Of a DNA stretch of 43,644 nt, positions 6,049-21,089 are shown piece after piece. The DNA comes from a virus. How positions within the stretch are numbered: position 1 is the stretch's first letter; every line of letters starts with the position of its first letter. Position numbers and translations under genes: made by a program. Where the stretch lies: IMG/VR virus record IMGVR_UViG_3300036768_000231, positions 1 through 43,644 of that record; one strand, written 5' to 3'. A model generated the notes under the pieces. That model saw nothing but the letters and a program-made list of their open reading frames with translations. It searched no databases and was not told the origin of the DNA.

Positions 6049-6095
6049 TGCTTATCTCCTTTTGTTAGATTACAGTTTTTGGTTTCGATGGTTTA

Positions 6096-6124: not shown

Positions 6125-6841
6125 GGGTTTTAGACCGCCAATTTTTAACGATTTTTTCGCTGACTGCCGCTGGCGTAGAGTCTGCTCGATTTATACCAGC
6201 ATTGTACCAGACTTTTCTATTAAAAGATTAGATTCCTGTTATTATCATCCTCTACAAATTAAAATATTGTAGGGTTTTACTCTTGTTACAAAAATAAAAA
6301 TTTTAACAGGTTATAAAACATTAGTTCTTTTTGAATTTTTCGGATAAGATTATATCACAAGAGATTTAAACCTGTAAAGGTTTTTGGCGGTAATTGTGAT
6401 AAATTTAACTTGTTGGTGCAAACGGGTTTCTAGCCAATTCTGCGGGCGGAAAGGTATAAAGTATTGTTTTTTTAAATTTTGTTCAGCGCGGGCATTCTGG
6501 ATAGGATTCTTATGTTTATACGAATTCGTGAGAAGATATTTATATATAAAATCATAATAAATAATTTACCAGTGTATAATTAGAATTCGTTCATTTTAGG
6601 ATTGACAAGAGAAAAAACTTCAATCTTAAAACCTTAAAATTTTATTTTTACTATTGACAAATAAATTATTATATGGTGGCAACTAGACCTTAAAATATTT
6701 TTTAATACTTATTTATAACTTGACGGCGGGAAGATTATATGCTATCAAAAATTTCGAAAAAAGTATTTAAATGGAATTAGAACAAAAATATATAAAGGAT
6801 AGAACACAATCTTAAAAAATGTTTTTTTCTGTATTATGATA
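6125..6841. other. AT-rich spacer between the leftward and rightward arms
   Basis: No supported gene. The strand switch of the window lies here. Two isolated TTGACA boxes (about 6604 and 6654) lack good -10 partners at the right distance. A short GC-richer patch (about 6410-6500) carries no recognisable structure. It may be a divergent regulatory region or an old insertion site. Confidence 0.5.
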
Positions 6842-6871
6842 TTGACAATATACGGGCGCATATAATATAAT
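6842..6871 (+). promoter_or_regulatory. Sigma-70-type promoter for the gene at 6907-7047
   Basis: TTGACA (6842-6847), 18 bases, TATAAT (6866-6871). An overlapping TATAAT begins at 6861 but its spacing is too short. The start codon is 35 bases downstream. Confidence 0.75.
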
Positions 6872-6906
6872 GGCGAAAATAAAACAAAAAGAAAAGGAAT
6901 CAGAAA

Positions 6907-7047
6907 ATGAATACATTGATTAACCAATATCGCAAGAGTCTGACACAGGCGCGAAAGGCCTACCGCAAGAATCCCACGAAAGAAAATCAGATTATGCGCG
7001 ATATTGCGTGGGGGAATCTAATCGCAGTATTAAGAAACAAAAAGTAA
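6907..7047 (+). CDS. Small basic protein, 46 residues
   Basis: A complete monocistronic unit: promoter 6842-6871, AAAGGAA binding site, ATG 6907, TAA at 7047, terminator at 7054-7086. The peptide (MNTLINQYRKSLTQARKAYR...) is strongly basic and helical. Its function is unknown; small phage proteins of this kind often bind host factors or nucleic acid, but nothing here shows which. Confidence 0.75.
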   Translation: MNTLINQYRKSLTQARKAYRKNPTKENQIMRDIAWGNLIAVLRNKK

Positions 7048-7053
7048 AAAACG

Positions 7054-7086
7054 ATTATCCCCGTCACATGGCGGGGATAATTTTTT
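7054..7086 (+). terminator. Rho-independent terminator
   Basis: ATTATCCCCG (7054-7063) pairs perfectly with CGGGGATAAT (7072-7081) around an eight-base loop, followed directly by a run of T. Confidence 0.9.
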
Positions 7087-7099
7087 AAGGTTTAAGCGC

Positions 7100-7127
7100 T
7101 TGACAACTTTTATAAAATCCGTATAAT
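7100..7127 (+). promoter_or_regulatory. Sigma-70-type promoter for the prepilin-like gene
   Basis: TTGACA (7100-7105), 16 bases, TATAAT (7122-7127). It follows the terminator at 7054-7086, so the downstream gene is an independent transcription unit. Confidence 0.75.
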
Positions 7128-7161
7128 GTGAGTATAACCTAATCACAAAGGATGATAAAAA

Positions 7162-7338
7162 ATGAATACAGAAAAAGGTCAGTCGCTTGTTGAATTCGCC
7201 GTATTACTCCTGATTGCGGCAATCTTCGCCGGGGTGATTGCGCTTGCGCTGAGTACCATTTTCGGCGGCGGACCTAACTTGTCGCAGGCCTGGTTTAATG
7301 CCTTATGTGCAAGCGGCGGACAGTGGGCGTGCCGGTAA
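7162..7338 (+). CDS. Flp/TadE-like prepilin peptide, 58 residues
   Basis: ATG 7162 follows AAAGGATG. The N-terminus MNTEKGQSLVEFAVLLLIAA is the class III (type IVb) prepilin pattern: a short basic leader ending in G6, then Q-S-L-V-E with the glutamate five residues after the cleavage point, followed by about 20 hydrophobic residues. The remaining tail (GGGPNLSQAWFNALCASGGQ...) contains two cysteines. Flp pilins and TadE-type pseudopilins of tight-adherence pili share this architecture and length. No pilus machinery is present in the window, so it would need a host prepilin peptidase and assembly system. Alternatively it is simply a small membrane protein. Confidence 0.65.
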   Translation: MNTEKGQSLVEFAVLLLIAAIFAGVIALALSTIFGGGPNLSQAWFNALCASGGQWACR

Positions 7339-7340
7339 TT

Positions 7341-7393
7341 TGGGTTATGCCAGGGCAGGGTATAGGGTTATACCCTGCCTTATGGATAACCCA
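7341..7393 (+). terminator. Long stem-loop after the prepilin-like gene
   Basis: An inner stem GGCAGGGTATA/TATACCCTGCC (7354-7379, loop GGGT) is extended by TGGGTTAT (7341-7348) pairing with ATAACCCA (7386-7393). There is no T-run, so it is more likely a message-stabilising or processing hairpin than a full terminator. Confidence 0.55.
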
Positions 7394-7417
7394 AAAAAAC
7401 AAATAAGGAAAAAATAC

Positions 7418-7513
7418 ATGTATAACCATACTGTTGGCGAAATAATTGTTTATTCAATCCTTTTGACGGGGGCGGGCGTGTATCTGGTATTAGTATTATT
7501 TGGAATATGCTAA
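7418..7513 (+). CDS. Small single-span membrane peptide, 31 residues
   Basis: ATG 7418 follows AAGGAA. The peptide MYNHTVGEIIVYSILLTGAG continues with VYLVLVLFGIC, almost all hydrophobic, so one membrane span. It directly follows the prepilin-like gene and precedes the gene at 7515 by one base, suggesting a small membrane-associated operon. Confidence 0.55.
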   Translation: MYNHTVGEIIVYSILLTGAGVYLVLVLFGIC

Positions 7514-7514
7514 C

Positions 7515-7727
7515 ATGACACGGCAAATTATAATCACTCTGGCAATACTGACGGGTAGGGAATCTACTCACAGCGCTATTGCAAAGGGTTTAATCTTACG
7601 CCGGGAATATGAGCAAGCATATAATACAGCACATGAGTTATATTTAAATCACTGGACAGTCGCCCCGGCGGAAAATGGATACAATGCGATACAAAATATA
7701 CCGCGCTGGAAAAGACGGATTAGGTAA
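7515..7727 (+). CDS. Hypothetical protein, 70 residues
   Basis: ATG 7515 lies one base after the previous stop, so it is probably translationally coupled. The sequence (MTRQIIITLAILTGRESTHS...) has a short hydrophobic start, then a polar helical middle (GLILRREYEQAYNTAHELYL) and a basic end. No family recognised. Confidence 0.5.
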   Translation: MTRQIIITLAILTGRESTHSAIAKGLILRREYEQAYNTAHELYLNHWTVAPAENGYNAIQNIPRWKRRIR

Positions 7728-7747
7728 TAAAAAAAGGATAATATAAA

Positions 7748-8108
7748 ATGAATAAATACGCGATTGTTAACGGACTATATCGTCAGAATGTATATAATGT
7801 TAGAGATGGACGCGGACATTATAAAAATTATACTCGTTATTATAACTTAGACTTTTCCTTTTTTCTTGTGAGTATAGCAGGCACTAACAGAGGATTAATC
7901 GATTTTAAGGAAAACAAGAATCCCAAAATTATTTTTGTTTCAAAAAAAATTAAAAAATTTGTTAACTTCAATCCTGCGAGAATGGACATATAGTCATTTA
8001 AAGCCAATCGGAACCGATGCCTCGGAATCTATACGTAAAATTTTCAATGAACCTTTGGATGCGGAAATTACTAAAAGGTTTTATGAGTTTCAAATTTCCA
8101 AAAAATAA
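7748..8108 (+). pseudogene. Gene with a frameshift in an A-run
   Basis: ATG 7748, after AAGGATAA, opens 81 residues (MNKYAIVNGLYRQNVYNVRD...) ending at 7993. From the A8 tract near 7942 another frame continues as LREWTYSHLKPIGTDASESI and on to FYEFQISKK, ending at 8108 just before a terminator. Joined, they give a protein of about 119 residues. Decay, a sequence error in the homopolymer, or slippage on A-runs could each explain it. Confidence 0.55.
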
Positions 8109-8116
8109 ATAAAAAA

Positions 8117-8150
8117 AATAATACTCTGCTGAAGCAGGGTATTATTTTTT
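8117..8150 (+). terminator. Rho-independent terminator
   Basis: AATAATACTCTGC (8117-8129) pairs over 13 positions with GCAGGGTATTATT (8134-8146) around TGAA, then a T-run to 8150. It ends the small-gene block. Confidence 0.9.
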
Positions 8151-8164
8151 AAGGTTAATGGTAT

Positions 8165-8214
8165 AGTTAAGATACTTAATAGTTAATAATACTTAACTAT
8201 TAAGTATCTTAACT
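8165..8214. repeat. Perfect 22-bp inverted repeat
   Basis: AGTTAAGATACTTAATAGTTA plus one base (8165-8186) is the exact reverse complement of 8193-8214, with a six-base loop. Half-copies (ATAGTTAACTAT at 8221-8232) lie next to it. It is very AT-rich with no T-run, so it is better read as a cruciform or protein-binding palindrome than a terminator. Confidence 0.8.
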
Positions 8215-8353
8215 GTTCGTATAGTTAACTATGTACTCTCAATCTTTACAGTGTTTAGATTATGTAAGTACACTTTACTTAATGTCAAGTATCCTTTACA
8301 TTATATACGATACTAGAGGGGGGCGGAAGGGCAAACCAAGATAATCATACATA

Positions 8354-8384
8354 TATTATTGATAATATACTATTATCAATAATA
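8354..8384. repeat. 14-bp inverted repeat
   Basis: TATTATTGATAATA (8354-8367) is mirrored by TATTATCAATAATA (8371-8384) around TAC. It is the second large palindrome in the 700-base non-coding region upstream of the winged-helix gene. Confidence 0.75.
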
Positions 8385-8651
8385 ATTTGGGGGGTATTTT
8401 ACAAGTGGACGCCACCCCTCCCGCTCATAACCCATGTAGCGGTTTGATTCACACATCCCCGACAAGGGAAGTTGCATAGGCAAAACCTGTATGTACGATA
8501 CAGAAAAACCCATTTGCAAGGCATTGTTTGAGCATAGGGTCAAAATGCCCCATCACAAACAAAACCTTATGTGATATACTTAGACGTGAAGAAATCGCTA
8601 TGGAGTAGCATTTCACTGGCTTGGGATTGGTTATTTTTCCTCATTAACTTT

Positions 8652-8818
8652 CATGGAGTAGAAAATCTACTCCATGACTTTCATGGAGTAGAAAATCTAC
8701 GAGTTAATTAATATATATGTATTAATTAATTAATTAATTAATTAATTAATTAATTAATTAACTCGTAGAAATTCTACTTCTTGAAACTTCCGGTAGTTTC
8801 ATGGAGTAGAAAATCTAC
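8652..8818. other. Candidate replication origin or operator array
   Basis: Four copies of the palindrome GTAGAAAATCTAC occur at 8658-8670, 8688-8700, 8765-8777 (as GTAGAAATTCTAC) and 8806-8818. Three copies carry CATGGA upstream, and the first extends to a perfect palindrome CATGGAGTAGA/TCTACTCCATG (8652-8676). Between copies two and three lies a TTAA microsatellite (8704-8762). It is closed by CTACGAGTTAATTAAT and its reverse complement ATTAATTAACTCGTAG (8753-8768), so the whole unit can extrude as a cruciform. Iterated sites next to an easily melted AT tract, just before a winged-helix gene, are typical of phage and plasmid origins. The last copy touches the -35 box at 8822, so it may also regulate transcription. 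Confidence 0.55.
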
Positions 8819-8821
8819 CTC

Positions 8822-8850
8822 TTGACTTTTCAAGAGAAGTGTGGTATACT
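8822..8850 (+). promoter_or_regulatory. Extended -10 promoter beside the operator array
   Basis: TTGACT (8822-8827), 17 bases, TATACT (8845-8850) within GTGGTATACTT, the same element as at 9871-9881. A GTAGAAAATCTAC palindrome ends four bases before the -35, well placed for a repressor or activator. Confidence 0.75.
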
Positions 8851-8881
8851 TTTTAAAGCTAAAAAAACACCAGGAAATGAA

Positions 8882-9139
8882 ATGCAACTCTATATAGGAG
8901 AAATCGTGTCAAAATCAACAAATATAAAAATTCCCACCAGTTTTTAGGAGAGATAACCACTCCCCTTACACCCGAAGGACTAAAAGAAATTTAAGAATTA
9001 TTATATCCACCCCTGCAATATGCAACTACCATCCTTATTGAAAAAAGGGGGGGGGCATATATATGGCGTTAGTGTAAATGGTGTAAGAGAGTTTGTAAGC
9101 GACGTATTGTACAATGCAGTTAAAAGGGAACTCGCATAG
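8882..9139 (+). pseudogene. Decayed gene upstream of the winged-helix protein
   Basis: Pieces of one protein appear in different frames. ATG 8882 or GTG 8906 opens MSKSTNIKIPTSF before a TAG. Another frame carries GEITTPLTPEGLKEI, an in-frame TAA, then ELLYPPLQYATTILIEKRGG. After a nine-G tract (9047-9055) a third frame gives HIYGVSVNGVREFVSDVLYN ending at 9139. Removing one G would restore the last join. At least three lesions argue for real decay; the poly-G could also be a phase-variable switch. Confidence 0.5.
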
Positions 9140-9178
9140 TTAGAGTTGTTGTGTTGGAAATGTAGATAGGAGTAAAAT

Positions 9179-9589
9179 TTGCAAATACCAGACGAATTCG
9201 CAAACAATGTTGTAACTTATAGTGCTCCTGCGATAAAGCTGTTTTTCTATTTTCGGTTTCTTCTTATTGAACAGCAAGTGACCTCTCAATTTTATGATTA
9301 TCCGTGTGCTTATCAAACGCTACGAGAGAAAGCGGGTGTAAAATCCAATCCCTTGCTACGTTCTGCTCTAAAAGAGTTGGAAGATACGGGATGGATTCAA
9401 ATACTAAAGAAGGGTCATTACAATAGAATTTCTAGAAAAAAGGAAAGCAACGTTTATCGGATTACGAATTATAAAGATTTAGACAATGCTCTTGTGTCTA
9501 GCGCTGTATCTACTCAATCGGCAGACACCGTGCAGCTATCAAAAGCAATCAAACAATTGAAAGGAAGTTTAAAAAATGACAACGAGTAA
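9179..9589 (+). CDS. Winged-helix DNA-binding protein, candidate replication initiator or regulator
   Basis: The start is TTG 9179 with TAGGAG seven bases upstream. Residues about 10-95 fit a winged helix: hydrophobic helix (APAIKLFFYFRFLLIEQQ), recognition helices (CAYQTLREKAGVKSNPLLRS and ALKELEDTGWI), then a basic wing (KKGHYNRISRKKESNVYRI). This is the layout of RepA-like initiators and MarR/GntR-like regulators. The C-terminal 40 residues are polar. It is the first intact gene after the operator array, so it probably binds there. It overlaps the next gene by 14 bases. Confidence 0.6.
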   Translation: MQIPDEFANNVVTYSAPAIKLFFYFRFLLIEQQVTSQFYDYPCAYQTLREKAGVKSNPLLRSALKELEDTGWIQILKKGHYNRISRKKESNVYRITNYKDLDNALVSSAVSTQSADTVQLSKAIKQLKGSLKNDNE

Positions 9590-9845
9590 CACCTTAATAA
9601 GTGCTTTATATTTTATAGACAGACTCGAAACAGAAATTGGGGATGGGGTCAAGGTAAAACTTGAAGTTTGCGAGGAAGAAATTCTTAAAATTATTGTGCA
9701 TTGGGAAAGTTATGATTTTACGTTTAGTTACTCTTGTCACGCAAACAACATCAAGGGAATGAGTGATGAAGCGTTTATCTCCTTTTTCGTAGTATATGTT
9801 AAAGCCAAATTTCGCGCAATGCTGAATGTGCAAAACTCCCTGTAA
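9576..9845 (+). CDS. Hypothetical protein, 89 residues
   Basis: ATG 9576 lies within the end of the winged-helix gene, after GGAAG. The sequence (MTTSNTLISALYFIDRLETE...) alternates hydrophobic and polar residues, predicted alpha-beta-beta-alpha; no domain recognised. Probably co-translated with its upstream neighbour. Confidence 0.65.
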   Translation: MTTSNTLISALYFIDRLETEIGDGVKVKLEVCEEEILKIIVHWESYDFTFSYSCHANNIKGMSDEAFISFFVVYVKAKFRAMLNVQNSL

Positions 9846-9851
9846 AGACCG

Positions 9852-9880
9852 TTGACAAATTTCAGTCTTTGTGGTATACT
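9852..9880 (+). promoter_or_regulatory. Extended -10 promoter for the genes from 9905
   Basis: TTGACA (9852-9857), 17 bases, TATACT (9875-9880) preceded by TGTGG. The -10 block GTGGTATACTT is identical to that at 8841-8851. Confidence 0.85.
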
Positions 9881-9904
9881 TAAATAAAAATTCCAAGGAG
9901 TCTT

Positions 9905-10093
9905 ATGAAACACACCGTTGCCAATCCGCATTTCCCGGACGTAAACGAAAGAATTTGGAACGAAGATGCCTTATATGAGTTCATGAAGAAAATGAACCTT
10001 CTTGGAATTTCTGAGAACGATAAAATTCTTGTTATCAAGACTTGGAATGAGGCAGTTGCCCAATACATCATAGGTTCCCAAGCGAAAGATTAA
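9905..10093 (+). CDS. Hypothetical protein, 62 residues
   Basis: ATG 9905 follows AAGGAG and is 25 bases from the -10 box. A short acidic-helical protein (MKHTVANPHFPDVNERIWNE..., ending VAQYIIGSQAKD). The next gene starts one base after its stop. Function unknown. Confidence 0.75.
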   Translation: MKHTVANPHFPDVNERIWNEDALYEFMKKMNLLGISENDKILVIKTWNEAVAQYIIGSQAKD

Positions 10094-10094
10094 T

Positions 10095-10517
10095 ATGACC
10101 CGATTATCTAAGATTTTACATAGCGCAGAATACAAAGGTAGTAGATATATTTATAAATTGATTCGTATTGGAGCAGGTGTAAAATATCCAAGAGGGAATT
10201 GCATGGCTACCGTCTTGGATGTAGAAGCCGACCCGATGGCGTGTGAATTTCCGTTGCCAAATTATAAGGAACTGGCGTTTGAGTGGGGAGAAAGAAACAT
10301 TCCGTTTCGCAAGCGCGAAAATGCTCTCTCCAAGGCAATTCTGTATCATTATTACTTTCAAGATTTTGAAAAGTACGCAAGGAACAAAAAACTGGACACA
10401 TTAGTTCCGTACTTTCGAGCAGAAATAATCGAACTGGTTCCCTTTGAGGGTGTGGATATTACCGAAGCGATTGTCGAAACCTGGTTGGATTACAAAATGG
10501 ACGAGTTAGGAATGTAA
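10095..10517 (+). CDS. Hypothetical protein, 140 residues
   Basis: It starts at ATG 10095, immediately after the upstream stop (TTAATATG), so coupled translation is likely. An N-terminal beta-rich part (YKGSRYIYKLIRIGAGVKYP) is followed by a basic helical middle and acidic C-terminal helices. No domain recognised. Confidence 0.7.
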   Translation: MTRLSKILHSAEYKGSRYIYKLIRIGAGVKYPRGNCMATVLDVEADPMACEFPLPNYKELAFEWGERNIPFRKRENALSKAILYHYYFQDFEKYARNKKLDTLVPYFRAEIIELVPFEGVDITEAIVETWLDYKMDELGM

Positions 10518-10596
10518 ACAAGGAGAAATACGAAAAAGATTAATTTTGTTATTGAGAGGGAATTGGAAAGTCCAATCGAACACAGAGAGGTTTGAG

Positions 10597-10677
10597 ATGC
10601 TCATTTTAATTGACAAGATACTTCGTTTTCTTTTACAATTCAAAAAGATACGCATTAGAAATACTCACGGAAGATAA
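10597..10677 (+). CDS. Possible 26-residue basic peptide
   Basis: ATG 10597 follows GAGAGGTTTGAG and gives MLILIDKILRFLLQFKKIRI then RNTHGR, an amphipathic basic helix, stopping one base before the next start. Upstream, AAGGAGA precedes an ACG (10530) that would open KKINFVIERELESPIEHREV to the TGA at 10595. This looks like a gene that lost its ATG, or uses ACG. Both are weak calls. Confidence 0.3.
   Translation: MLILIDKILRFLLQFKKIRIRNTHGR
10610..10639 (+). promoter_or_regulatory. Probable promoter for the membrane protein at 10679
   Basis: TTGACA (10610-10615), 18 bases, TACAAT (10634-10639), 40 bases before ATG 10679. It lies inside the possible peptide at 10597-10677. Confidence 0.5.
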
Positions 10678-10678
10678 T

Positions 10679-10855
10679 ATGGGTTGGTATGATTTTTTTG
10701 AAAACATTCTTGTCGTTTTGAATAAAATAAGAATTTTCTTTATCCGCGTGTTTTGGTATATACTTGTCTTTGCCTTTGTCGGATATGCTGTAATCACTCT
10801 GTTTGGCATATGCTATTTTACTTGGAAGTTTCTAATTTTTATCGGAGTATTATAA
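10679..10855 (+). CDS. Small membrane protein, 58 residues
   Basis: ATG 10679 follows ACGGAAG; a longer reading from TTG 10610 would begin in the -35 box and is rejected. A charged N-terminal segment (MGWYDFFENILVVLNKIRIF) is followed by a long hydrophobic region (FWYILVFAFVGYAVITLFGI then CYFTWKFLIFIGVL), so probably two membrane spans. It could be an early membrane effector such as a superinfection-exclusion protein, but that is only a guess. Confidence 0.6.
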   Translation: MGWYDFFENILVVLNKIRIFFIRVFWYILVFAFVGYAVITLFGICYFTWKFLIFIGVL

Positions 10856-10870
10856 ATTCCTAGAATTCTT

Positions 10871-11080
10871 TTGGATGTGGATTACTGTATTGCGCTTCTT
10901 CATGACGAATGGTTAATTCGATACAATCGTGATTACGATGATAGCCTGATGGGTGAGGATATATCCGAGTGGAATATGACCAAGTTTGTCAAACCAGAAT
11001 GCGGGGTAAAGATTTATGTTTATTTAAACCAGCCCGATTTGTATAATACGACGTGTCTCATAATCAAAGCGCTCAAGTAA
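10871..11080 (+). CDS. Hypothetical protein, 69 residues
   Basis: The frame opens at TTG 10871 (or GTG 10877) without a clear ribosome binding site, so the N-terminus is uncertain. An acidic protein (DYCIALLHDEWLIRYNRDYD...). In another frame GTG 11053 opens MSHNQSAQVTYRAYDWEDVL and PIIVLLEEHND, ending at 11148 over the next start. That piece reads like real protein and may be the displaced C-terminus of this gene. Confidence 0.5.
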   Translation: MDVDYCIALLHDEWLIRYNRDYDDSLMGEDISEWNMTKFVKPECGVKIYVYLNQPDLYNTTCLIIKALK

Positions 11081-11140
11081 CATACCGCGCATATGATTGG
11101 GAGGACGTATTGCCTATTATAGTGCTGTTGGAGGAACATA

Positions 11141-11431
11141 ATGATTGATGATGTATTTTATCAGAATGTTGGCAAGCGTACTTTTAAAGATTGTAAAGAA
11201 AGGAACACTCCTTTAACACTTTTATCTGTAGAGGCGAAGACAGAATGGTATAAAGGCTATGACATGGCGAGAATTCCCGCAAACGGCCATAAAGTCGGTT
11301 GGAGTTATTATGAAGGGGAATGTGGGCAGTACGGAGATTATGCGAAATCTGAAGTTGAAAACATAGTAAAGAAAATGAATTGTATGGATAATGGATACCC
11401 GCTGGTTTACTTTGTTATTCCTCCTTCGTAA
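11141..11431 (+). CDS. Hypothetical protein, 96 residues
   Basis: ATG 11141 follows TTGGAGGAA at ideal spacing. A balanced composition (MIDDVFYQNVGKRTFKDCKE..., YYEGECGQYGDYAKSEVENI, ending YPLVYFVIPPS). No domain recognised. It is the last small gene before the RNA polymerase and probably in the same transcript. Confidence 0.75.
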   Translation: MIDDVFYQNVGKRTFKDCKERNTPLTLLSVEAKTEWYKGYDMARIPANGHKVGWSYYEGECGQYGDYAKSEVENIVKKMNCMDNGYPLVYFVIPPS

Positions 11432-11457
11432 GCATATAAACTTGGAGAATATCACTA

Positions 11458-14208
11458 TTGAAAAAAATACAACAATTCTCAGTTTTAAGATTGGAAAGTA
11501 AGAGACTCAAAGAGTCTAACTATAACATAAAAAAGTTCTCTATTGAAGACTCTGCCAAAAACGGAGAGATTATATTGATGGCAAACTCTCAATTGATACG
11601 AACATTATTGAGAGTGTGCGGAAGAGAGTATAATGCGGCGGAACTAGATGAACTTGAAGCACAAAAGAAATTCTTTCGAAAGCGGAAAAACACCCAAAAA
11701 AACCGCGAAAGATTTTCTCAAATATTATCCAGAATAGAAAATATTCTTTTCATTCCTGAAATAGTTAGCGTTTATTTTACAGACAGACGCCACTATAACA
11801 ACATCCTGAACAGGGATGGTTTTTTTGTTTTAGGGAAGAGGTATGTCCCCTTCATGGCAAGCGCAGGGATGTTACGCAGAGACTCGGTGTTATTTATTGA
11901 CGCTACAATACGAGATAAAATTCTAGAAATATTCGAAAACAATCGAGATACATCGGTTCCATTAGTCCCGTCAAAATATTCTGCATACTTTAGTTTGTAC
12001 TCGTCATCGTCCTACGAAGTTACATTTCCCAGAATTGCAGTTGTTCCAGATAAAATTATAAAAGCGGCAAAGAGAGTTAATTACGGAAAATATATAGCAG
12101 AAGGTGTTGACCCGCTTGTAGTAGAAAAAGAAATGGAACTGGAATTTAACGCTTTTGATGGGCAGGGCTTATGCTCTCCTGAAATCGCAGAAGTTTGGAA
12201 AAAAGAACTTGAACTGGATTATCTTCCCTCCTATTTTGGAGTACGTGCCCCGTTTATAAAAGGCCAATGCACCGTTTTCGATTTTCACAAATTCGGAAAA
12301 GAAATTGCCAACTCTTCTTTTATAACAGACATATACGGAAAAACAATTTCTATACAGGATGTAGACTGTATTATATCTGAATCACAGTTTAAGTTATGGA
12401 ACGCTTATACGAGTACAGAGTTTTATGTACAAAGTTGTAAGGATAATAATTTAGGTTGGGGAATAACCAAAGTTCCTCCGAAGCGCGATAAAAACCACGC
12501 AAGAACCAGCTATCAATTTCTGCAAGTATTGAATTTATCGGATGACGCAATTAAAAGATTATGTAAGCCAACGCTAGACTGGATAAATGAATCAGGGGGG
12601 GCGGAAATAATGTCCACTCTAATGTATTCGTTGGGGGAAACCGATTTTACAGAAGGCTGGTTCGAAAGAGCGGATGTAATTACACAAGCGCTTTTATTGA
12701 ATAACTCGTTGTTGAATGATGGATACGTTAGAAGTCACTACTCGTCTTCTCTTTCCAAAAAGATGAATGACGCCAAAATGGGAAGGCTTTATTTAGAGGG
12801 AAATTATCAATGTATGATTTCAGACCCTTACGCCCAATGTTCTCACATTTTTGGAATTGAGTTTTCCCCTCTTCTTCAGGAGGGTCAGCATTATTCTCAA
12901 TACTGGAATGAGCGCGGTGTGGATAGAGTTGCGGCAATTCGCAGTCCGATTGTTCATCATGGAGAAGTTGGGGTATTGAACCTGCAATCTAATCCACAAG
13001 TTACAGATTGGTACAGATATATCTATAGTGGTATAGTATATCCGGCCAACGGTGTTGGAATCGATACGATGATACATGGAGGAGCCGACTTTGATTTGGA
13101 TATTGTTTGTACTGTGAACAGCCCAGAAATAATATCGGGAATAATACCTGACCTTCCGGTGGTATATGATGTTGTGAAGCCCGAAAAAGTGGAAATTCCA
13201 ACATCGCATTCTAAAATTGTATATGAGTCTCAGCTTTCCCAAATAAAAACCAACAAGATAGGTTTTTACACAAATGTAAGTTCGTCCTTGTATGCGATGT
13301 TAGCGGATTATCCAGAAGGAAGTCATGAAAGAGAAATCATCTTAAATCGACTGCGATGGGGGAGAGTTTTACAGGGAACCGAAATAGATAAAGCGAAGGG
13401 AGTAAAAGTTGACCCCTATCCGGAGCATTTCACAAAGTATAAACGTATAAGCGAAGAAATGGACGAAGAAGAAAAAACCCAATCCGCGCTGAACAATTCC
13501 CTTATTGCAGAGAAACGTCCTGTTTTTATGAGATGGTTGTACGCGGATTATAACGCGCGATACAGAAACGAAAGACAAACTTACGACACAATATCTCGTA
13601 CCAGATGGGGCAAACCTTTTGAGGAAATTGAAAGGCTTTCGGAAACAGAGGAGCAAGTAAGATTGGTTGAGCGCTATAAGAGAAAAACATTTTTTATAGA
13701 CAACGATTCTACGATGAATCGTATCAGCCGATATATAGAAAACAGCCTTCGAAATTTCAAAAGCGAATTTTCAAAAAATATATCTTCTTTTGATTATACC
13801 GCTTTGCTAAGTGGAAAAAATGTATCTCCCAATATAGAAACACTTAACAAATTGAAAGTTCTATATAAAGAGTATAAGAGTCTTAGGAAAACCTTGTATA
13901 GAAACGGGTCTAGCGAAATCTCCTTTGAAGACAATCAGGAAATATGTAAATACATAAACCAGAAGGCATATCGAACCATCTCTTCAAACGGAGCGGAATT
14001 GGCGGATATGACAATACTTCTATGCTATACCATTATGGGGAAAAACTCGAAGTCTTTTCTATGGAATGTATTCGGGAAAGAAGTTTTGGAAAATCTTAAA
14101 GGACGCCATTCAGAAAAGTATGTTCGTGTTCCGATGTATAACGATAAAGGCTCGTCCAGATACTTATGGTCAAATTACGGAATATATAAAATTCAAATAA
14201 AGGAGTAA
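11458..14208 (+). CDS. Two-barrel RNA polymerase (QDE-1/YonO/crAss-like family), 916 residues
   Basis: The start is TTG 11458 with TTGGAG upstream. Residues 257-350 match the first double-psi barrel: VRAPFIKGQ (K268) and ESQFKLW (K312), candidate catalytic lysines. Residues about 475-560 match the second barrel: AAIRSPIVHHGEVGV, then WYRYIYSGIVYPANG, then GGADFDLDIVC with D544, D546 and D548 as the metal-binding triad. This parallels the R-N-P...H-P-G-D...DxDGD order in eukaryotic RNA-dependent RNA polymerases and phage YonO. The usual glycine is leucine here; to my recollection a crAss-like phage enzyme has DFDID. Such enzymes synthesise RNA on DNA or RNA templates as one chain. The gene stands between early and late blocks, so a role in middle or late transcription is likely. 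The remaining 350 residues are helical and unassigned. Confidence 0.8.
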   Translation: MKKIQQFSVLRLESKRLKESNYNIKKFSIEDSAKNGEIILMANSQLIRTLLRVCGREYNAAELDELEAQKKFFRKRKNTQKNRERFSQILSRIENILFIPEIVSVYFTDRRHYNNILNRDGFFVLGKRYVPFMASAGMLRRDSVLFIDATIRDKILEIFENNRDTSVPLVPSKYSAYFSLYSSSSYEVTFPRIAVVPDKIIKAAKRVNYGKYIAEGVDPLVVEKEMELEFNAFDGQGLCSPEIAEVWKKELELDYLPSYFGVRAPFIKGQCTVFDFHKFGKEIANSSFITDIYGKTISIQDVDCIISESQFKLWNAYTSTEFYVQSCKDNNLGWGITKVPPKRDKNHARTSYQFLQVLNLSDDAIKRLCKPTLDWINESGGAEIMSTLMYSLGETDFTEGWFERADVITQALLLNNSLLNDGYVRSHYSSSLSKKMNDAKMGRLYLEGNYQCMISDPYAQCSHIFGIEFSPLLQEGQHYSQYWNERGVDRVAAIRSPIVHHGEVGVLNLQSNPQVTDWYRYIYSGIVYPANGVGIDTMIHGGADFDLDIVCTVNSPEIISGIIPDLPVVYDVVKPEKVEIPTSHSKIVYESQLSQIKTNKIGFYTNVSSSLYAMLADYPEGSHEREIILNRLRWGRVLQGTEIDKAKGVKVDPYPEHFTKYKRISEEMDEEEKTQSALNNSLIAEKRPVFMRWLYADYNARYRNERQTYDTISRTRWGKPFEEIERLSETEEQVRLVERYKRKTFFIDNDSTMNRISRYIENSLRNFKSEFSKNISSFDYTALLSGKNVSPNIETLNKLKVLYKEYKSLRKTLYRNGSSEISFEDNQEICKYINQKAYRTISSNGAELADMTILLCYTIMGKNSKSFLWNVFGKEVLENLKGRHSEKYVRVPMYNDKGSSRYLWSNYGIYKIQIKE

Positions 14209-14211
14209 TCC

Positions 14212-14946
14212 TTGAAAATATTATATAACGAAGAAGTAATGGGTAAGATGCTTTTAGAGAAAGGGTATAGCAATGGCTATACCTTTTATGAAACATTATT
14301 GGTTGCGAGATATTTATATCATAAAGACGGTTTGAAGGGCGTTCCCCTGAAGAAAAAAATAATTGCACATATCGAGGTACACGACCCCCTTTTTGCATCT
14401 CATACCCGGTATAGTATGCTTAAGGAGATTATGAAAAAATCAACCCTTCCTTTTGTGTCTACAGGAACAGTGACCATTTATGAGGATGAGATTTCGAAAA
14501 TCAGGGAAATAAAGAACTTCAAATTTCAGAAAATAGCGCTTGCTATTTTATTAGTTTCAAAACGTGCGACAAACAAGGGTACAATTAATATCCAGTCTTT
14601 TCGTGAAGTAAAACATCTTGTAAGCCATAAAATAACAAGGCAGGATATTCTAAATTGTTTGTACCACATGAGAACAAATTTGATGATAGAAGTATTTGAC
14701 GCTCATAAATTCAAGGAAGATGCAAAAGTCTGGTATAAAGTTATCTTTTCGAGAGACCACGGAATACCTGTTTTTATAATCGAAAACGATAATGATGCAA
14801 AAAAAATAGGAAAACGATACGAAGAACATTGCGGTGGGATTATCGGCTTTTGCTCATGTGGCGCAGAGTTTATTCGCACAAACAATTATCAAAGAATGTG
14901 CTCAAACTGTGCGGCAAAAAGAAAACATCGTAAAGTGAATGTGTAG
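14212..14946 (+). CDS. Zinc-finger protein paired with the RNA polymerase, 244 residues
   Basis: TTG 14212 follows AAAGGAG and lies three bases after the polymerase stop, so the two are co-translated. The N-terminal 200 residues are basic and helical. Segments such as FQKIALAILLVSKRATNKGT and ITRQDILNCLYHMRTNLMIE look like a winged-helix pair. The C-terminus is a four-cysteine zinc ribbon (FCSCGAEF...MCSNC) with a basic tail. The pairing suggests a specificity or processivity factor for the phage polymerase. That is inference from position and DNA-binding character only. Confidence 0.65.
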   Translation: MKILYNEEVMGKMLLEKGYSNGYTFYETLLVARYLYHKDGLKGVPLKKKIIAHIEVHDPLFASHTRYSMLKEIMKKSTLPFVSTGTVTIYEDEISKIREIKNFKFQKIALAILLVSKRATNKGTINIQSFREVKHLVSHKITRQDILNCLYHMRTNLMIEVFDAHKFKEDAKVWYKVIFSRDHGIPVFIIENDNDAKKIGKRYEEHCGGIIGFCSCGAEFIRTNNYQRMCSNCAAKRKHRKVNV

Positions 14947-14991
14947 GGCTTGCAAGGGGGCGAATCTATATATGGACAGGAATAATATAAA

Positions 14992-15315
14992 ATGATTGGG
15001 AAAAATATATCAACCAGAAAAGAATTTGTAAAGGTTGTTGCGAAACGTGCAAATTTTACGCAAGGGGATGTTGAAATAATTTTAGATACAATAACGAAAA
15101 TTTTCGAGGAAGCCACTCTGGAAGGGGTTGAAATTAGAGTTAGAAAATTTGGCAGGCTTTATCATCAAACTCTACCCGAACGAAAAGGCGGTTTGAACGG
15201 AAAAATCCTCCCTCCCGCCAGGAGAACCGCCTTTAGACTTGCGGACAACATACGTTCTGGCGGACTTATTTGTTACGACAATGAAGAAGAAAGTATACAA
15301 GAGGAGGAAACTTAA
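14992..15315 (+). CDS. HU/IHF-like DNA-binding protein, 107 residues
   Basis: It matches the HU fold throughout: helical N-terminus (STRKEFVKVVAKRANFTQGD then VEIILDTITKIFEEA), the glycine-turn strand (EGVEIRVRKFGRLYHQTLPE), a flexible arm with the intercalating-type proline region (GKILPPARRTAFRLAD), and an acidic tail. Such proteins bend and compact DNA and help replication, recombination or packaging. ATG 14992 lacks a strong binding site. The stop overlaps the endolysin start (TAATG). Confidence 0.85.
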   Translation: MIGKNISTRKEFVKVVAKRANFTQGDVEIILDTITKIFEEATLEGVEIRVRKFGRLYHQTLPERKGGLNGKILPPARRTAFRLADNIRSGGLICYDNEEESIQEEET

Positions 15316-17048
15316 TGGATATTTTTAGCGCTTTATCGCCGAAGTTTTATAAGATAGATACAAATAGATTCCCTGTATGGGGAATAGACACAAGTTTTTA
15401 TTCTGCCCAAATGGATTGGGACACGTTTAAAAAAGCGGGCGGAACATTCGCTATTATAAAAATGCTGGGCGGCATAAAAGTGGATGTGTGGTTTGAGAAA
15501 AATTATGTATCTGCAAAAAAAGCTGGTGTACTAGTTAGCACATATCAATGGTTATATTCAAACGCCTTAGAGTCTGTTGTGTTACAGGCATCCAAATATG
15601 CCGAAATGCTTAAACAATATCCTGTAGACTTTTACCCTTCTATAGATTATGAATGGTATCCTTCTAGAAATCCTGTTTCTACAGACTTGGAAAAATATGT
15701 TGAAGAGTTTGAATCCAGAAGTAACTATAAATTAATGATTTATTCTGCCCCCGGATATTTAAGAGACAATAATTATAAGTTAGGAAACAAGTTTTCGTCA
15801 TATCCATTGTGGGTGGCTCACTACGAAGTATCCAACCCCGATGTTGTTGAGCCTTTTACGCACTGGACTTTTTGGCAGGCAAGCGAAAGAGCGGACGGAA
15901 AATCTTTAGGGTCTTCGGTGTACGGAGAAACAGAAATTGATTTGAATTATTTCAACGGCTCTTTGAGCGATTTCTTTGAATTATGTAATGTTTCCGGGGG
16001 AACGGATGTAAAAAAAATTCCTTCAAATCCTGATACAGAAATAATTTTGGACGGAAAGAAATATTCGGTAAACACGGACGTTCTTAATTTAAGACCGGAA
16101 CCAAATACAAGCAAACCTGCAATCAAAAAATTATATATGGGCGAAATTCTTCATGGGATAACTAAAAACGTAGATGGGTCTTGGGTTAAAGTTTTAACAT
16201 CGGAATCTCTCGTTGGCTGGTGTTCTATTCAGTATTTAAGATTAATATCTGAAAATCATGAAGAGCCTAAAGAGGAATATAATTCCCCTGTGAACACAAC
16301 ATCTGTTTTGGAATCGCGGAATTTATTTGGAGGAAAAGCGGACTATAAAAAATGGTCTATTGCTACACCTAGAGGGAATATAATTTATCATATTGTTAAA
16401 ATTAAAAAACAATATGCTGAAATTTTTATAACCCCGCGCCCATCATCTGTTTCCTATGTTCACTCGTTTTTGACAAGATACAAGTTGCAAATTGCAATTA
16501 ACGGAGACGGCTTTGCTTCCGTAAAAAAAGGTTCTCAGTGGCAATTGATTATGGCGGGGCAGTCTGCAAGCAAAGGCCAACCATACGGAACTGCTAATGC
16601 AGAAGGGGCTATTTACATTTCCAGAAATGGGGAAGCATCGTTTTCAAGACCTCCCGAGAAGGATTTATGGAACGCCATTGCCTTTCCTAATAAACTTGTC
16701 GAGAACGGTACGAAGGCAAAGATAACCAGAACAGACTTAGACCCGCGAACGGCTTTAGGATTTACAAAAGACAGTGATATAATTATAGTTGCAGTAGACG
16801 GAAAAGAAACTTATAATTTAAATCGTAGCGGAGCATCCTTTGACGAACTTGCTACGGTTCTTATAGAAAACGGGGCATGGATTGGGGTAAACCTAGACGG
16901 TGGGGGAAGTACAACACTGGTTATCGAAGGAGAGAATAAAACTCCCGAAATACTGAATGTGCCGTGCGGAGAAAATTCCATAAATGTCGGCGGAAAGGTA
17001 TACCGTCTTAGACCGGTAGCCAACCATTTTGGCGTATATATAAAATAG
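15315..17048 (+). CDS. Modular endolysin: GH25 muramidase, SH3 domain, phosphodiester glycosidase
   Basis: Residues about 20-220 are a GH25 lysozyme: WGIDTSF (D25) and PSIDYEW (D111, E113) are the family's acidic active-site residues, with WTFWQASERADG and TEIDLNYFNG near its end. Residues about 250-315 are an SH3b domain (VNTDVLNLRPEPNTSKPAIK, ending GWCSIQYLRL), which binds cell wall. Residues about 330-577 resemble the NAGPA/phosphodiester glycosidase family (AINGDGFASVKKG, GVNLDGGGSTTLVI). It would cleave peptidoglycan at lysis or at entry. No signal peptide is visible, so a holin is needed for export (see 37008). The triple combination is unusual for a phage. Confidence 0.85.
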   Translation: MDIFSALSPKFYKIDTNRFPVWGIDTSFYSAQMDWDTFKKAGGTFAIIKMLGGIKVDVWFEKNYVSAKKAGVLVSTYQWLYSNALESVVLQASKYAEMLKQYPVDFYPSIDYEWYPSRNPVSTDLEKYVEEFESRSNYKLMIYSAPGYLRDNNYKLGNKFSSYPLWVAHYEVSNPDVVEPFTHWTFWQASERADGKSLGSSVYGETEIDLNYFNGSLSDFFELCNVSGGTDVKKIPSNPDTEIILDGKKYSVNTDVLNLRPEPNTSKPAIKKLYMGEILHGITKNVDGSWVKVLTSESLVGWCSIQYLRLISENHEEPKEEYNSPVNTTSVLESRNLFGGKADYKKWSIATPRGNIIYHIVKIKKQYAEIFITPRPSSVSYVHSFLTRYKLQIAINGDGFASVKKGSQWQLIMAGQSASKGQPYGTANAEGAIYISRNGEASFSRPPEKDLWNAIAFPNKLVENGTKAKITRTDLDPRTALGFTKDSDIIIVAVDGKETYNLNRSGASFDELATVLIENGAWIGVNLDGGGSTTLVIEGENKTPEILNVPCGENSINVGGKVYRLRPVANHFGVYIK

Positions 17049-17056
17049 GAGGCGGC

Positions 17057-17854
17057 ATGGAAGAATATTGGCAAACAAGAATACGCACTCCAAACATGAC
17101 TCAGTTTATCCCGTGGACGTTATATCCAAAAAAGGGAGGTTTTGGCGCAGGCGGCCAAAACAATTGGTCTGAAATCGGAGGAAATCGCTTGAAGTTTATC
17201 AAAGACCTTAATAACAATGGGCCAGTTCTTCAGAACATGATTTGGGAGCGGGGCGGAAGTATTTATGTTTATGTTCCCAAAAAAGGGGAGCCATATTATA
17301 AGAAAGCGTGGCAAGCCCCCGCTGTTCGTTGGCCCCGTATTGGGGTTGTATTCAATGTTGTAAAAGTTGTTGAACGCGAAGGGGACTGGAATCGTATTGA
17401 AGGGATACCTGCCGATGCGGAATTAAGCACAGATTTGATTAATCGCCAAAAGACTCCTTGGTTGGTACATCGGATATGGTGCGGCGGTAAAAAAGACAGA
17501 AGCGGAAAAATAGCATTGAGGAACATGCCAAAGGGAGCCGCAGACATGGGTCTTTTTGAACCGGTAGGACTACCAGGAACCGGGGGAGATGGTCTATGGT
17601 TGCACATATCTTCTTTGGAAAAAAGATTAGATGACCCTCTTGCCCCACTCGTGCCCCCTGACGGGGTTGTGGTATACGATAATTCCCTTACAGGAAACTA
17701 TGATGCTGTAACCTTTTTGCGCGGCTCTATAATTTGGCAAAGGCCGCAAGAGGGTTCCCAAAAAATAAGAAAACTTATAAAGAGTGAAACCTTGTTAGTA
17801 TACGAGATTGTTGGAGACTGGTATAAAGTGTTCGAGGGATGGATAAAAAGGTAA
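17057..17854 (+). CDS. Putative SH3-like wall-binding protein, 265 residues
   Basis: ATG 17057 follows AGGAGGC, eight bases after the endolysin stop. It is rich in Trp, Gly and Pro. Two regions (about 85-115, GVVFNVVKVVEREGDWNRIE, and the C-terminus, TLLVYEIVGDWYKVFEGWIK) have the beta pattern and closing G-W-hydrophobic motif of SH3b repeats; a GLWLHISSLE segment near 190 looks like a third. No catalytic residues recognised. Probably an accessory lysis or wall-binding protein. Confidence 0.55.
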   Translation: MEEYWQTRIRTPNMTQFIPWTLYPKKGGFGAGGQNNWSEIGGNRLKFIKDLNNNGPVLQNMIWERGGSIYVYVPKKGEPYYKKAWQAPAVRWPRIGVVFNVVKVVEREGDWNRIEGIPADAELSTDLINRQKTPWLVHRIWCGGKKDRSGKIALRNMPKGAADMGLFEPVGLPGTGGDGLWLHISSLEKRLDDPLAPLVPPDGVVVYDNSLTGNYDAVTFLRGSIIWQRPQEGSQKIRKLIKSETLLVYEIVGDWYKVFEGWIKR

Positions 17855-17863
17855 AACTCACCC

Positions 17864-17892
17864 TTGACATATTTAGGGTTCTATGGTATTAT
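17864..17892 (+). promoter_or_regulatory. Near-consensus promoter for the structured RNA
   Basis: TTGACA (17864-17869), exactly 17 bases, TATTAT (17887-17892) with an extended TGG. No start codon with a binding site follows for 580 bases, so the product is RNA. Transcription should begin near 17899. Confidence 0.85.
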
Positions 17893-17898
17893 TAATAC

Positions 17899-18235
17899 AA
17901 TCACAAAGGTAGACCTGTGTGAGAGTTTCATAGCCCTTATATTTAGACCGCCTTCGCGGAAGGCATTAAAGGTCTGCGCTTCCAAAAGTTTTTGAACGGG
18001 CATGAAACAAAAAAAGATGATTGGTTTCGCCAATCAATATATAAAATAATGGGCGCGGCGTGGATGTAGTACACGCGGAAAAGGTGAAGAATCCTCGAAT
18101 CTGAGGCCTGCAATCGAGGAGGAATAGAACCGATTAATCCAAATGCGTTCGACAAGTCCCATAACCTTGACGCAAAGAGGAGGAGCGCTCTGAGGGCAAC
18201 CCGGCCTCTCGCCCATTATTTTTCTTATTTTTATT
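17899..18235 (+). ncRNA. Large structured non-coding RNA, family not recognised
   Basis: The stems found by eye form two domains. 5' domain: GTTTCAT-a-GCCC (17925-17936) pairs with GGGCATGAAAC (17998-18008) and encloses AGACC/GGTCT and the hairpin GCCTT-cgcgg-AAGGC. A linker hairpin TGATTGG/CCAATCA (18018-18036) follows. 3' domain: AAAATAATGGGCG (18043-18055) pairs perfectly with CGCCCATTATTTT (18210-18222) and encloses GCGTG/CACGC, TCCTCGA/TCGAGGA, TGCGT..CAAG/CTTG..ACGCA and AGAGG/CCTCT. A T-rich run (18217-18235) follows and can end transcription. A strong promoter and no reading frame make it an RNA gene. It does not match tmRNA, RNase P RNA or 6S RNA, and it sits beside tRNA-Ser. The exact ends are inferred. 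Confidence 0.7.
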
Positions 18236-18246
18236 TCGTGGCATAT

Positions 18247-18334
18247 GGAGTTGTGTGCGGAGTGGCCCGCAACCAGTCTTGAAAACTGGACTATCGAGTA
18301 ATCCTCGATAAGAGTTCGATTCTCTACGGCTCCT
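18247..18334 (+). tRNA. tRNA-Ser (anticodon TGA)
   Basis: Acceptor GGAGTTG pairs with CGGCTCC (18327-18333). The anticodon stem-loop is CCAGT-CTTGAAA-ACTGG with anticodon TGA. A long variable arm (TCGAG-taatc-CTCGA) marks it as class II, and the T-loop is TTCGATT. It reads UCA codons. The discriminator base is T, which is unusual for serine, and CCA is not encoded. It lies 12 bases after the structured RNA and is probably co-transcribed with it. Confidence 0.92.
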
Positions 18335-18477
18335 CTTGAACATCAAACGTTTTTTTTCGTAAAATTGCCGTTATTTTTGTAGCCTGTATGGAATATAAAG
18401 AAACTCCGATACGTGTCTAATTCTAATATAAAATTTTCTAAAATACAATATTTCCATAGTTAAAACCAAAGGAAATT

Positions 18478-18707
18478 ATGCCAATAAAAGATGAGTTTTA
18501 TAAATATTGGAGAGAGCGCTGGCAAATTAGAAAATCTTAGAGACATCTGCAAACGTTGTAGAGACCAGAAGCGCGTTTCTTGCGTGCTACCTTGCAAGAA
18601 TATGAGAAATAACCGAAAATACTGCGGGCTGGAAATGTCCAAGGTGTAAACAGATTAATTTTTCGGCTCATCAATATTGTTCTATATGTCATATGAAAAA
18701 GCCATGA
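18478..18707 (+). pseudogene. Frameshifted zinc-finger gene
   Basis: ATG 18478, after AAAGGAAA, opens MPIKDEFYKYWRERWQIRKS then TAG. A second frame continues NLRDICKRCRDQKRVSCVLP and CKNMRNNRKYCG. A third frame ends GWKCPRCKQINFSAHQYCSI then CHMKKP at 18707. Six or more paired cysteines show a multi-finger protein broken at two points. The end overlaps a small hairpin (AAAGCC-ATGA-GGCTTT, 18698-18713). The stretch 18335-18477 contains nothing recognisable. Confidence 0.5.
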
Positions 18708-18733
18708 GGCTTTACTAAAAGGAGTATTTTATC

Positions 18734-19708
18734 TTGAAGAACGAAGTATACAAGGAGTGTTTTGAAAGATGGGCGAATTCTGCTGGAAACCAGCCGTTTT
18801 GGAAAGAACTATCCGAAAGGCACGGCTATTCAAGCCCTGAGGCATTGCGCTCTCAGTTTAAGCGAGAGAGACGTAAGCGGGGTGACAATAAAACCATGCA
18901 ATCCGCACAGCATAATTCTCCCGTTGGAATTTTGAAGTCGCCTGTAAGAGCAGTAGTTGTTGATATTGAAACCCTATACCCAATTTACGCGAGTTGGAAC
19001 ACTTACGGTGTCGACTTATCTCCCGACATGTTGCTGGAAGAAGGATGTCTCTTGTCTTGGTCAGGAACGGTATATGGAGAAGATAGCATTCAAGCCGATA
19101 TTATGACTCCGAAGGAAGCAAAGGGAAGAGATTCTTATCGTGTGGTAGATAGTTTGTATCGTTTCTTGGAAACTGCTCATATTGGCATTGGACATAATTC
19201 TACAGATTTCGATTTCAAGTTAGCCAATACCTACTTTTTGGATTATCGATTTCCTCCTGTGAAGTTCCAAAAGATTGATACATTTCAAATTCTTAGAAAA
19301 CATTTCAAACTTCCTTACAATCGCCTTGCTTATGTTAATAAGCGATTTGGAATTCGAGAAAAGATGCCAAACGAAGGTTTTGGGCTGTGGCGTAAATGCG
19401 CCGAAGGAGACCAAGAGGCTCTTGATACAATGCTAAAATATAACATCGAAGATGTTCTTGCAACTTCTGAACTATTTACATTAGTTTATCCGTGGGCAGA
19501 TAATCTTCCCTCGTTCTCTCCGTATGCTCCTCAAGGGGAAAAATCTGTATGCTCTTGTGGCTCAGAGGATTTGGAACCAGCGGGAGAATGGCGATTAAAT
19601 TTAGGTGTCTACGAAAAATATCGTTGCAAGAATTGTGGTTCTCTTGTTAGAGGGCGCAAGAACTTGATGCCAGTAGACCAGCGTAAGCAACTTCTAGTAA
19701 AGTTATAG
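18734..19708 (+). CDS. DnaQ-like 3'-5' exonuclease with zinc ribbon, 324 residues
   Basis: TTG 18734 follows GGAG. Residues 20-50 look like a helix-turn-helix (FWKELSERHGYSSPEALRSQ). Residues 72-250 are an RNase H-like exonuclease: VVVDIET (D77, E79), GHNSTDFDF (D158 or D160) and KYNIEDV (Y236, D240), giving the DEDDy set. Residues 270-310 hold a zinc ribbon (CSCGSEDL...YRCKNCGSLV). It resembles YprB-like or polymerase-proofreading domains but stands alone. It may degrade host or recombination-intermediate DNA, or process RNA. No polymerase domain is present. Confidence 0.75.
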   Translation: MKNEVYKECFERWANSAGNQPFWKELSERHGYSSPEALRSQFKRERRKRGDNKTMQSAQHNSPVGILKSPVRAVVVDIETLYPIYASWNTYGVDLSPDMLLEEGCLLSWSGTVYGEDSIQADIMTPKEAKGRDSYRVVDSLYRFLETAHIGIGHNSTDFDFKLANTYFLDYRFPPVKFQKIDTFQILRKHFKLPYNRLAYVNKRFGIREKMPNEGFGLWRKCAEGDQEALDTMLKYNIEDVLATSELFTLVYPWADNLPSFSPYAPQGEKSVCSCGSEDLEPAGEWRLNLGVYEKYRCKNCGSLVRGRKNLMPVDQRKQLLVKL

Positions 19709-19727
19709 ATTTAAAAAATAAGGATTT

Positions 19728-19841
19728 ATGAAAATAATCAAAAAGGGAAATCTTCTAGAAGAAAAACTTACGAACGAAAAAGAATGCGAAAGAGGAAGAT
19801 ATGTTTTATCTATTAAATTTTTTACATCTTATTTCGTGTGA
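19728..19841 (+). CDS. Possible small peptide, 37 residues
   Basis: ATG 19728 follows AAGGA and runs MKIIKKGNLLEEKLTNEKEC then ERGRYVLSIKFFTSYFV. The beginning looks like the start of small phage zinc-finger proteins, with the cysteine part missing, so it may be a truncated remnant. Confidence 0.35.
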   Translation: MKIIKKGNLLEEKLTNEKECERGRYVLSIKFFTSYFV

Positions 19842-20002
19842 TGGGAATAGCATACTAGCATGAGATAAGTATATAATCTGGTTTATATACTGAAAAAGTT
19901 GACTAGATATAAACTGGATTTATGGGGGTATAGAATGTCATTTATTCTTGGGGGAATTCTGGGGGTTTTATAGACGCAAGTTGGGGGAATTTTATTTTTC
20001 CC
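19842..20002 (+). other. Non-coding leader of tRNA-Thr, candidate late promoter region
   Basis: It contains the inverted repeat GTATATAA-tctgg-TTTATATAC (19869-19890). G-runs recur (tatGGGGGtatag, ctTGGGGGAATTctgGGGGtttta, ttGGGGGAATTtta). A TTGACT at 19899 has no -10 box at normal spacing. It is the only sizeable non-coding gap before the 23-kb structural block, so a promoter for the phage polymerase could lie here; that is speculation. Confidence 0.35.
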
Positions 20003-20075
20003 GCCTGCGTAGCTCAATTGGAAGAGCAACCGCTTTGTAAGCGGTAGGTTATGAGTTCAACTCTCATCGCAGGCT
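20003..20075 (+). tRNA. tRNA-Thr (anticodon TGT)
   Basis: Acceptor GCCTGCG/CGCAGGC, D-arm with GCTCAATTGGAAGAGC, anticodon stem ACCGC-TTTGTAA-GCGGT (anticodon TGT), T-arm ATGAG-TTCAACT-CTCAT. It is 73 bases with discriminator T and no encoded CCA. It reads ACA codons, which are frequent in these AT-rich genes. A terminator follows at 20084. Confidence 0.95.
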
Positions 20076-20083
20076 CTATCTGT

Positions 20084-20115: not shown

Positions 20116-20131
20116 AGGAAGGAGAATCGTA

Positions 20132-21088: not shown

Positions 21089-21089
21089 T

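Follow-up and report, generated by a model that had tools for sequence, protein, structure and literature searches.

A two-barrel RNA polymerase of the YonO kind in a long-tailed phage and the winged-helix, zinc-ribbon protein that is probably its partner

YonO, the RNA polymerase of phage SPbeta, is a strict DNA-dependent enzyme that is essential for the phage and transcribes its late genes; the authors of that study left open which promoter it recognises and whether extra factors are needed (PMC5467207). The question is raised again by a virus record of 43,644 nucleotides (IMG/VR record IMGVR_UViG_3300036768_000231, the whole of which is called the window here, with all window coordinates counted from its first base). 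In this record a gene for a polymerase of the same kind (11458–14208, plus strand) is followed directly by the gene of a 244-residue protein, the partner (14212–14946, plus strand). Does the polymerase work alone, or is the small protein part of the enzyme? The reading favoured here, and considered probable, is that of a two-component polymerase of the YonO kind, with a catalytic chain and the partner as initiation subunit, which is likely to transcribe the packaging, head and tail genes.

The polymerase reading frame has 916 codons from a TTG start, with GGAG upstream at 11443. A preliminary description of the window, made from the letters alone, had proposed a single-chain two-barrel polymerase from a set of short motifs, and all of these were located in the frame. 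They are the first-barrel lysines K268 (12259–12261) and K312 (12391–12393) and, in the second barrel, AAIRSPIVHHGEVGV (residues 492–506, 12931–12975), IVYPANG (residues 526–532, 13033–13053) and GGADFDLDIVC (residues 541–551). The last of these contains DFDLD (13087–13101), with the metal-binding triad D544/D546/D548 and leucine at the fourth place. An HMM search, one of the checks that the description had suggested, gives a match to the Pfam family RdRP (PF05183, E=6.5e-13, residues 111–612), and PHROG matches are to phrog_8308 (1.7e-106) and a second family (5.6e-82), both listed with unknown function. Homologues are found by tblastn in 36 phage records, which include BUCT082, six Enterocloster and two Thomasclavelia phages, Psychrobacillus phage Perkons and SPbeta (yonO of SPBc2, E=8e-20). 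With the window polymerase as single query, phmmer found no relative among PDB sequences and a scan of viral contigs found nothing; the polymerase profile reached RDR2 alone among PDB sequences, and marginally. A profile built from three relatives gave 97 polymerase matches in viral contigs, 80 contigs were fetched with such a profile, and a scan with the polymerase of Thomasclavelia phage TR-TP1 added nothing new.

Residue conservation was read from an alignment of 66 polymerase relatives. R263, K268, K312, R495, P497, G602, N606 and D644 are identical in all 66, R495 and P497 being part of AAIRSPIVHHGEVGV, and D544, D546 and D548 are kept in 65, 64 and 62 sequences, the exceptions being local gaps or insertions and one histidine. 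Thus both the lysines and the triad, on whose presence in close homologues the preliminary description had staked its claim, are conserved. A structure model built from 44 relatives has a mean pLDDT of 89.9 and a pTM of 0.87. Its best PDB fold matches are QDE-1 and plant RDR2, with E values from about 1e-19 to 1e-14 over some 900 columns, that is, along the whole length of the chain, although these are eukaryotic RNA silencing enzymes with only 13–15% identity to it. The one further match near significance is the polymerase gp66 of the crAss-like phage phi14:2, at E=1.7e-3. Single-chain two-barrel polymerases are shared with phi14:2 (gp66) and with Thermus phage P23-45 (gp64/gp96); gp66 and gp96 are virion enzymes (PMC10770324). 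Taken together, the fold match of the model and the residue pattern leave little doubt that the window encodes a single-chain two-barrel polymerase of the YonO/QDE-1 kind, and by itself it is a further member of an already known polymerase type.

The small protein downstream appears to be made together with the polymerase. Its AAGGAG ribosome-binding site (14200–14205, plus strand) lies within the last two codons of the polymerase gene, which suggests that its translation is coupled to that of the polymerase. An AlphaFold2 model (pLDDT 90) displays four N-terminal helices, a winged helix (residues 87–177, 14470–14742) and a C-terminal zinc ribbon formed by C214, C216, C230 and C233 (14851–14910). 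In 45 aligned partners three of these cysteines are invariant and the fourth is present in more than 90%, with an overall identity to the window protein of just 15–23%. Fold matches among viral models, with E values down to 1.4e-10, are to uncharacterised or automatically named siphophage proteins. The zinc-finger/winged-helix protein that the preliminary description had placed next to the polymerase agrees with both the model and the cysteines, and its linkage to the polymerase is far stronger than could have been known from the window. No partner of a YonO-type polymerase is mentioned in the literature searched, a search that most subscription papers fall outside. The protein is a previously unrecognised small zinc protein, predicted to bind DNA, and probably the second component of the polymerase.

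Linkage of the two genes was followed in isolates, contigs and bacterial genomes. Directly after the polymerase gene of phages BUCT082, PMBT24 and TR-TP1 come an unannotated gene and then a gene for an HU-type DNA-binding protein, the same order as in the window, where HU is the third gene of the conserved module (14992–15315, plus strand; Pfam PF00216, 5.5e-8). In the 80 viral contigs nearly every polymerase is followed by a protein of 240–300 residues with a terminal zinc ribbon, which starts between about 50 nt before and 70 nt after the polymerase stop codon. The order polymerase, partner, HU recurs in many loci, and the genes further along vary in distance. Polymerase and partner profiles were then used on about 380 genomes from two bacterial families and a third, overlapping draw. 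All seven genomes with a polymerase of the window's type (G022, G167, G193, G325, G341, G403 and G412) carry a full-length partner no more than 30 nt downstream, versus none of the 32 genomes with other polymerase types only, at the same threshold. Among 33 genomes with YonO-type polymerases, a full-length partner is present in two. In G022 it adjoins a second polymerase, which is of the window's type, and in G013 it stands directly after a polymerase of 926 residues that is 36% identical to that of PMBT24 and only 24% to YonO. The sole genome of the survey in which a partner-like gene was found and a polymerase was not is G404; here the product is a 409-residue protein with inserted sequence (L158:3301-4530), which may be a remnant or a family member with a separate use.

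The closest comparisons among isolates show what is kept and what changes. BUCT082 polymerase UAW07825, zinc-ribbon partner UAW07826 and HU stand in the same order, with 32–33% identity over the full length of the polymerase; both proteins are annotated as hypothetical, and the active site differs in being DFDYD. The long-tailed Enterocloster phages PMBT24 and CB457P1/CB473P1 share the order polymerase, partner, HU, terminase and portal, and differ in having DFDGD and, in CB473P1, a polymerase broken into several open reading frames. TR-TP1 also has a polymerase, a partner-like protein and HU in succession, but its partner has 209 aa and no zinc ribbon. YonO resembles the window enzyme in its single chain, two-barrel core, aspartate triad and lysines, with HU downstream and late genes beyond; it differs in sequence (about 25–26% identity), in its DNDGD motif, in having a C-terminal ribbon of its own and in lacking a partner gene.

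A tree of 77 polymerases, with branch support given as SH-aLRT, places these differences in order. All 43 tree members of the window's clade, which form one branch (SH-aLRT 99), have the partner gene. In the YonO clade a C-terminal ribbon is fused to the polymerase in 25 of 27 tree members by the pattern used, and the remaining two have cysteine-rich tails of other spacing; here no partner gene is present, and HU or other genes come after the polymerase. A third clade, of TR-TP1 and relatives, has a partner without a ribbon. The window polymerase precedes HU and the late genes as YonO does, and the zinc ribbon on the chain is absent from it as from the whole of its clade. It is thus a member of a separate, supported clade of the YonO-like kind and not of the YonO clade itself. 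When the partner profile was run over the complete SPBc2 genome, it gave a single hit, at the C-terminus of YonO (E=3.7e-7). The polymerase's own C-termini likewise score best in many YonO-type genomes, and all these alignments rest on the ribbon and a basic tail. Homology between the YonO tail and the partner ribbon is suggested by these hits.

How the two proteins might work can be outlined by analogy with YonO. The phage would encode a DNA-dependent RNA polymerase with two double-psi barrels in a single chain, and make it together with the 244-residue partner. The partner would most likely dock on the chain through its C-terminal zinc ribbon, with the winged helix contacting promoter DNA, and may serve as a dissociable subunit for promoter recognition or DNA opening. 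In YonO and its close relatives a ribbon belongs to the polymerase chain itself, and no partner gene is present. The most likely targets are the packaging, head and long-tail genes (20051–43578, plus strand), among which are terminase, portal, tape measure and Dit genes; the last two bear out the long-tail morphogenesis block of the preliminary description. They lie downstream on the same strand, and their assignment as targets is extended from SPbeta, where YonO transcription starts upstream of yonK (PMC5467207). A winged helix followed by a zinc ribbon is also the architecture of TFE (TFIIE-alpha), a polymerase-associated initiation factor of archaea and eukaryotes. The likeness of the partner, seen in its model and cysteines, is an analogy only, as no match to TFE/TFIIE-alpha was found in Pfam, PDB sequence or PDB fold searches. 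If the two-component reading is true, two-component enzymes exist among those relatives of cellular RNA polymerases that were supposed to have a single subunit, and the partner could be a model for the attachment of an initiation factor to the simplest two-barrel polymerases. The partner would be a named candidate for an extra factor of the kind left open for YonO, and the unannotated gene of isolates such as BUCT082 and PMBT24 would gain a likely function.

Several points weigh against this reading. In the PDB fold search the partner has only weak matches, to winged-helix proteins (Fur, ORC), with a best E of 0.05. The ribbon is a short and common motif, small ribbon proteins of other kinds also match the partner profile weakly, and the ribbon-free partners of the TR-TP1 clade show that a ribbon is not needed everywhere. 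The distribution of partner and ribbon is clean, but it amounts to two or three evolutionary events in three clades, so that the counts are not independent. In addition, the window yielded no late-promoter motif. The polymerase might act alone, as YonO does, with the partner an ordinary DNA-binding regulator or replication protein that merely shares the transcript. A winged helix with a zinc ribbon would suit a generic repressor, or an activator of other genes, the HU gene comes next in the same block, and YonO elongates in vitro without a partner (PMC5467207). This explanation is nevertheless judged unlikely: window-type polymerases keep the partner even though their clade is deeply diverged, other types lack it, genes beyond it vary in distance, and the ribbon alternates in location between partner and polymerase. 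Less likely again is that the partner serves in elongation, processivity or anti-termination, or handles the host polymerase, and is not an initiation factor. Zinc ribbons are known in elongation factors too, and a long, structured leader follows the mapped start site of YonO; however, contact with promoter DNA is the more typical role of a winged helix, and YonO is already highly processive (PMC5467207).

Two further alternatives concern the catalytic chain, and both are very improbable. The enzyme could copy RNA and be a true RNA-dependent RNA polymerase, as the name of the Pfam family RdRP and the annotation of the PMBT24, TR-TP1 and Perkons homologues would have it, but YonO, of the sister clade, strongly prefers DNA over RNA as template (PMC5467207). 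The leucine of DFDLD could also abolish activity, and the closest relatives (L012–L014) do carry glycine there. Against a loss of activity, neither the three aspartates nor the two lysines are altered, no stop interrupts the 916 codons, and bulky residues recur at this place, including in the DFDYD of the isolate Bacillus phage BUCT082. In 75 tree members the fourth residue is G in 55, Y in 7, S in 6, F in 3, A in 2, M in one and L in one, the window; at least nine changes between glycine and other residues are needed on the polymerase tree, and ribbon-fused members of the YonO clade all have glycine. The preliminary description had read the leucine as the replacement of an invariant glycine. 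The leucine is real, yet the position is variable, and the idea of a remarkable active-site change was dropped on these family counts. DFDLD is thus one of the rarer forms of the motif, with no invariant residue lost.

The start site mapped for YonO allows a candidate late promoter to be described in the relatives. Genome G369, which is taken here to be the B. subtilis 168 chromosome, has YonO at the expected place, so that the published start site 2225998 could be located; it falls within GTCGGAT[A]ATAGTCATTT. The start-site box is identical in about 17 loci with a BUCT082-type polymerase, and sites of the box GTCGGATAATAGTCATTT are at L157:3835-4009 (B. subtilis 168 about 2225834-2226008), L002:7480-7654 and L015:12146. 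The box is constant among SPbeta-like phages, whichever of the two polymerase types they carry. An inverted repeat directly before the box occurs in at least five sequence versions with the pairing kept, and in control sequences stems of at least six pairs are found at this place in about 1–3%. A relaxed form of the box has exactly two copies in each of SPBc2 and BUCT082, all ahead of late genes; the second copy in SPbeta and BUCT082 is 157 bp upstream. The box can also pair with a stretch about 65 nt downstream, so that it may have a role in the RNA. Box and inverted repeat form a candidate late promoter or leader RNA element.

In the HU–yonK gap of BUCT082 (L002) and SPBc2 (L006) lies a 1.5 kb leader that is 94% identical between the two, although their polymerases fall in separate clades. 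It seems that the polymerase module was exchanged and the late leader retained, and, since this leader is so similar with such different polymerases, enzymes of either kind may initiate at one and the same box. A wider proposal, considered rather unlikely, is that YonO-type polymerases are not all single-subunit enzymes, most sampled lineages having a dissociable winged-helix/zinc-ribbon initiation subunit whose ribbon is fused to the chain in SPbeta, and that at least SPbeta-like phages have a new type of late promoter, a variable inverted repeat abutting the fixed box GTCGGATAATAGTCATTT with the mapped YonO start, read by both enzyme kinds. The window has no copy of the SPbeta late box, even with up to 3 mismatches allowed. 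A search there for the two-hairpin architecture returned a palindrome region (8649–8790) and a terminator-like hairpin at 20084. The palindrome region was rejected as a late promoter; because of its position upstream of the polymerase, with direct repeats around it, it was judged to be a regulatory or replication region. Sigma-70-like promoters number 64 in positions 6000–22000 versus 50 expected from shuffled sequence, a slight excess that says little on who transcribes the late genes.

Polymerase genes of seven loci are split by insertions at or near the catalytic DxDxD codons (L003:2096-3033, L029:9626-10007, L044:9638-10018, L061:9695-10499, L069:9701-10829, L084:9659-10769 and L090:9593-9881), with the break falling between DFD and GD in L003 and L061. 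The L069 insertion matches group I introns in Rfam (E=2.6e-9), and the other three of four insertions tested showed no such match. A similar polymerase disruption has been described in zeta crAss-like phages (PMC7886860). Near the polymerase module Rfam matches are also found to DUF3800-VIII, drum and DUF3800-XI (L157:4976-5041, L157:3622-3731 and L061:14482-14635), with skipping-rope below threshold; all four are phage-associated small RNAs.

A perfect 22-bp inverted repeat (8165–8214) and three direct repeats of TTTCATGGAGTAGAAAATCTAC lie in the non-coding region 8165–8850 upstream of the polymerase, along with a long AT-rich palindrome and, at 8822, a sigma-70-like promoter (TTGACT-17-TATACT). 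The whole stretch 8165–8850 is a possible replication origin or early control region. Downstream of HU, the endolysin gene (15315–17048) fuses glycosyl hydrolase family 25, SH3 and phosphodiester glycosidase (NAGPA) domains, and a tRNA-Ser is located at 18247–18335. A tRNA-Thr (20003–20076) overlaps the first 26 bases of the open reading frame called at 20051 (20051–21088), and on account of this overlap its gene probably starts further downstream. An integrase-like gene (37817–38809; phrog_1, E=2.4e-36) stands amid the tail genes, just before the tape measure gene.

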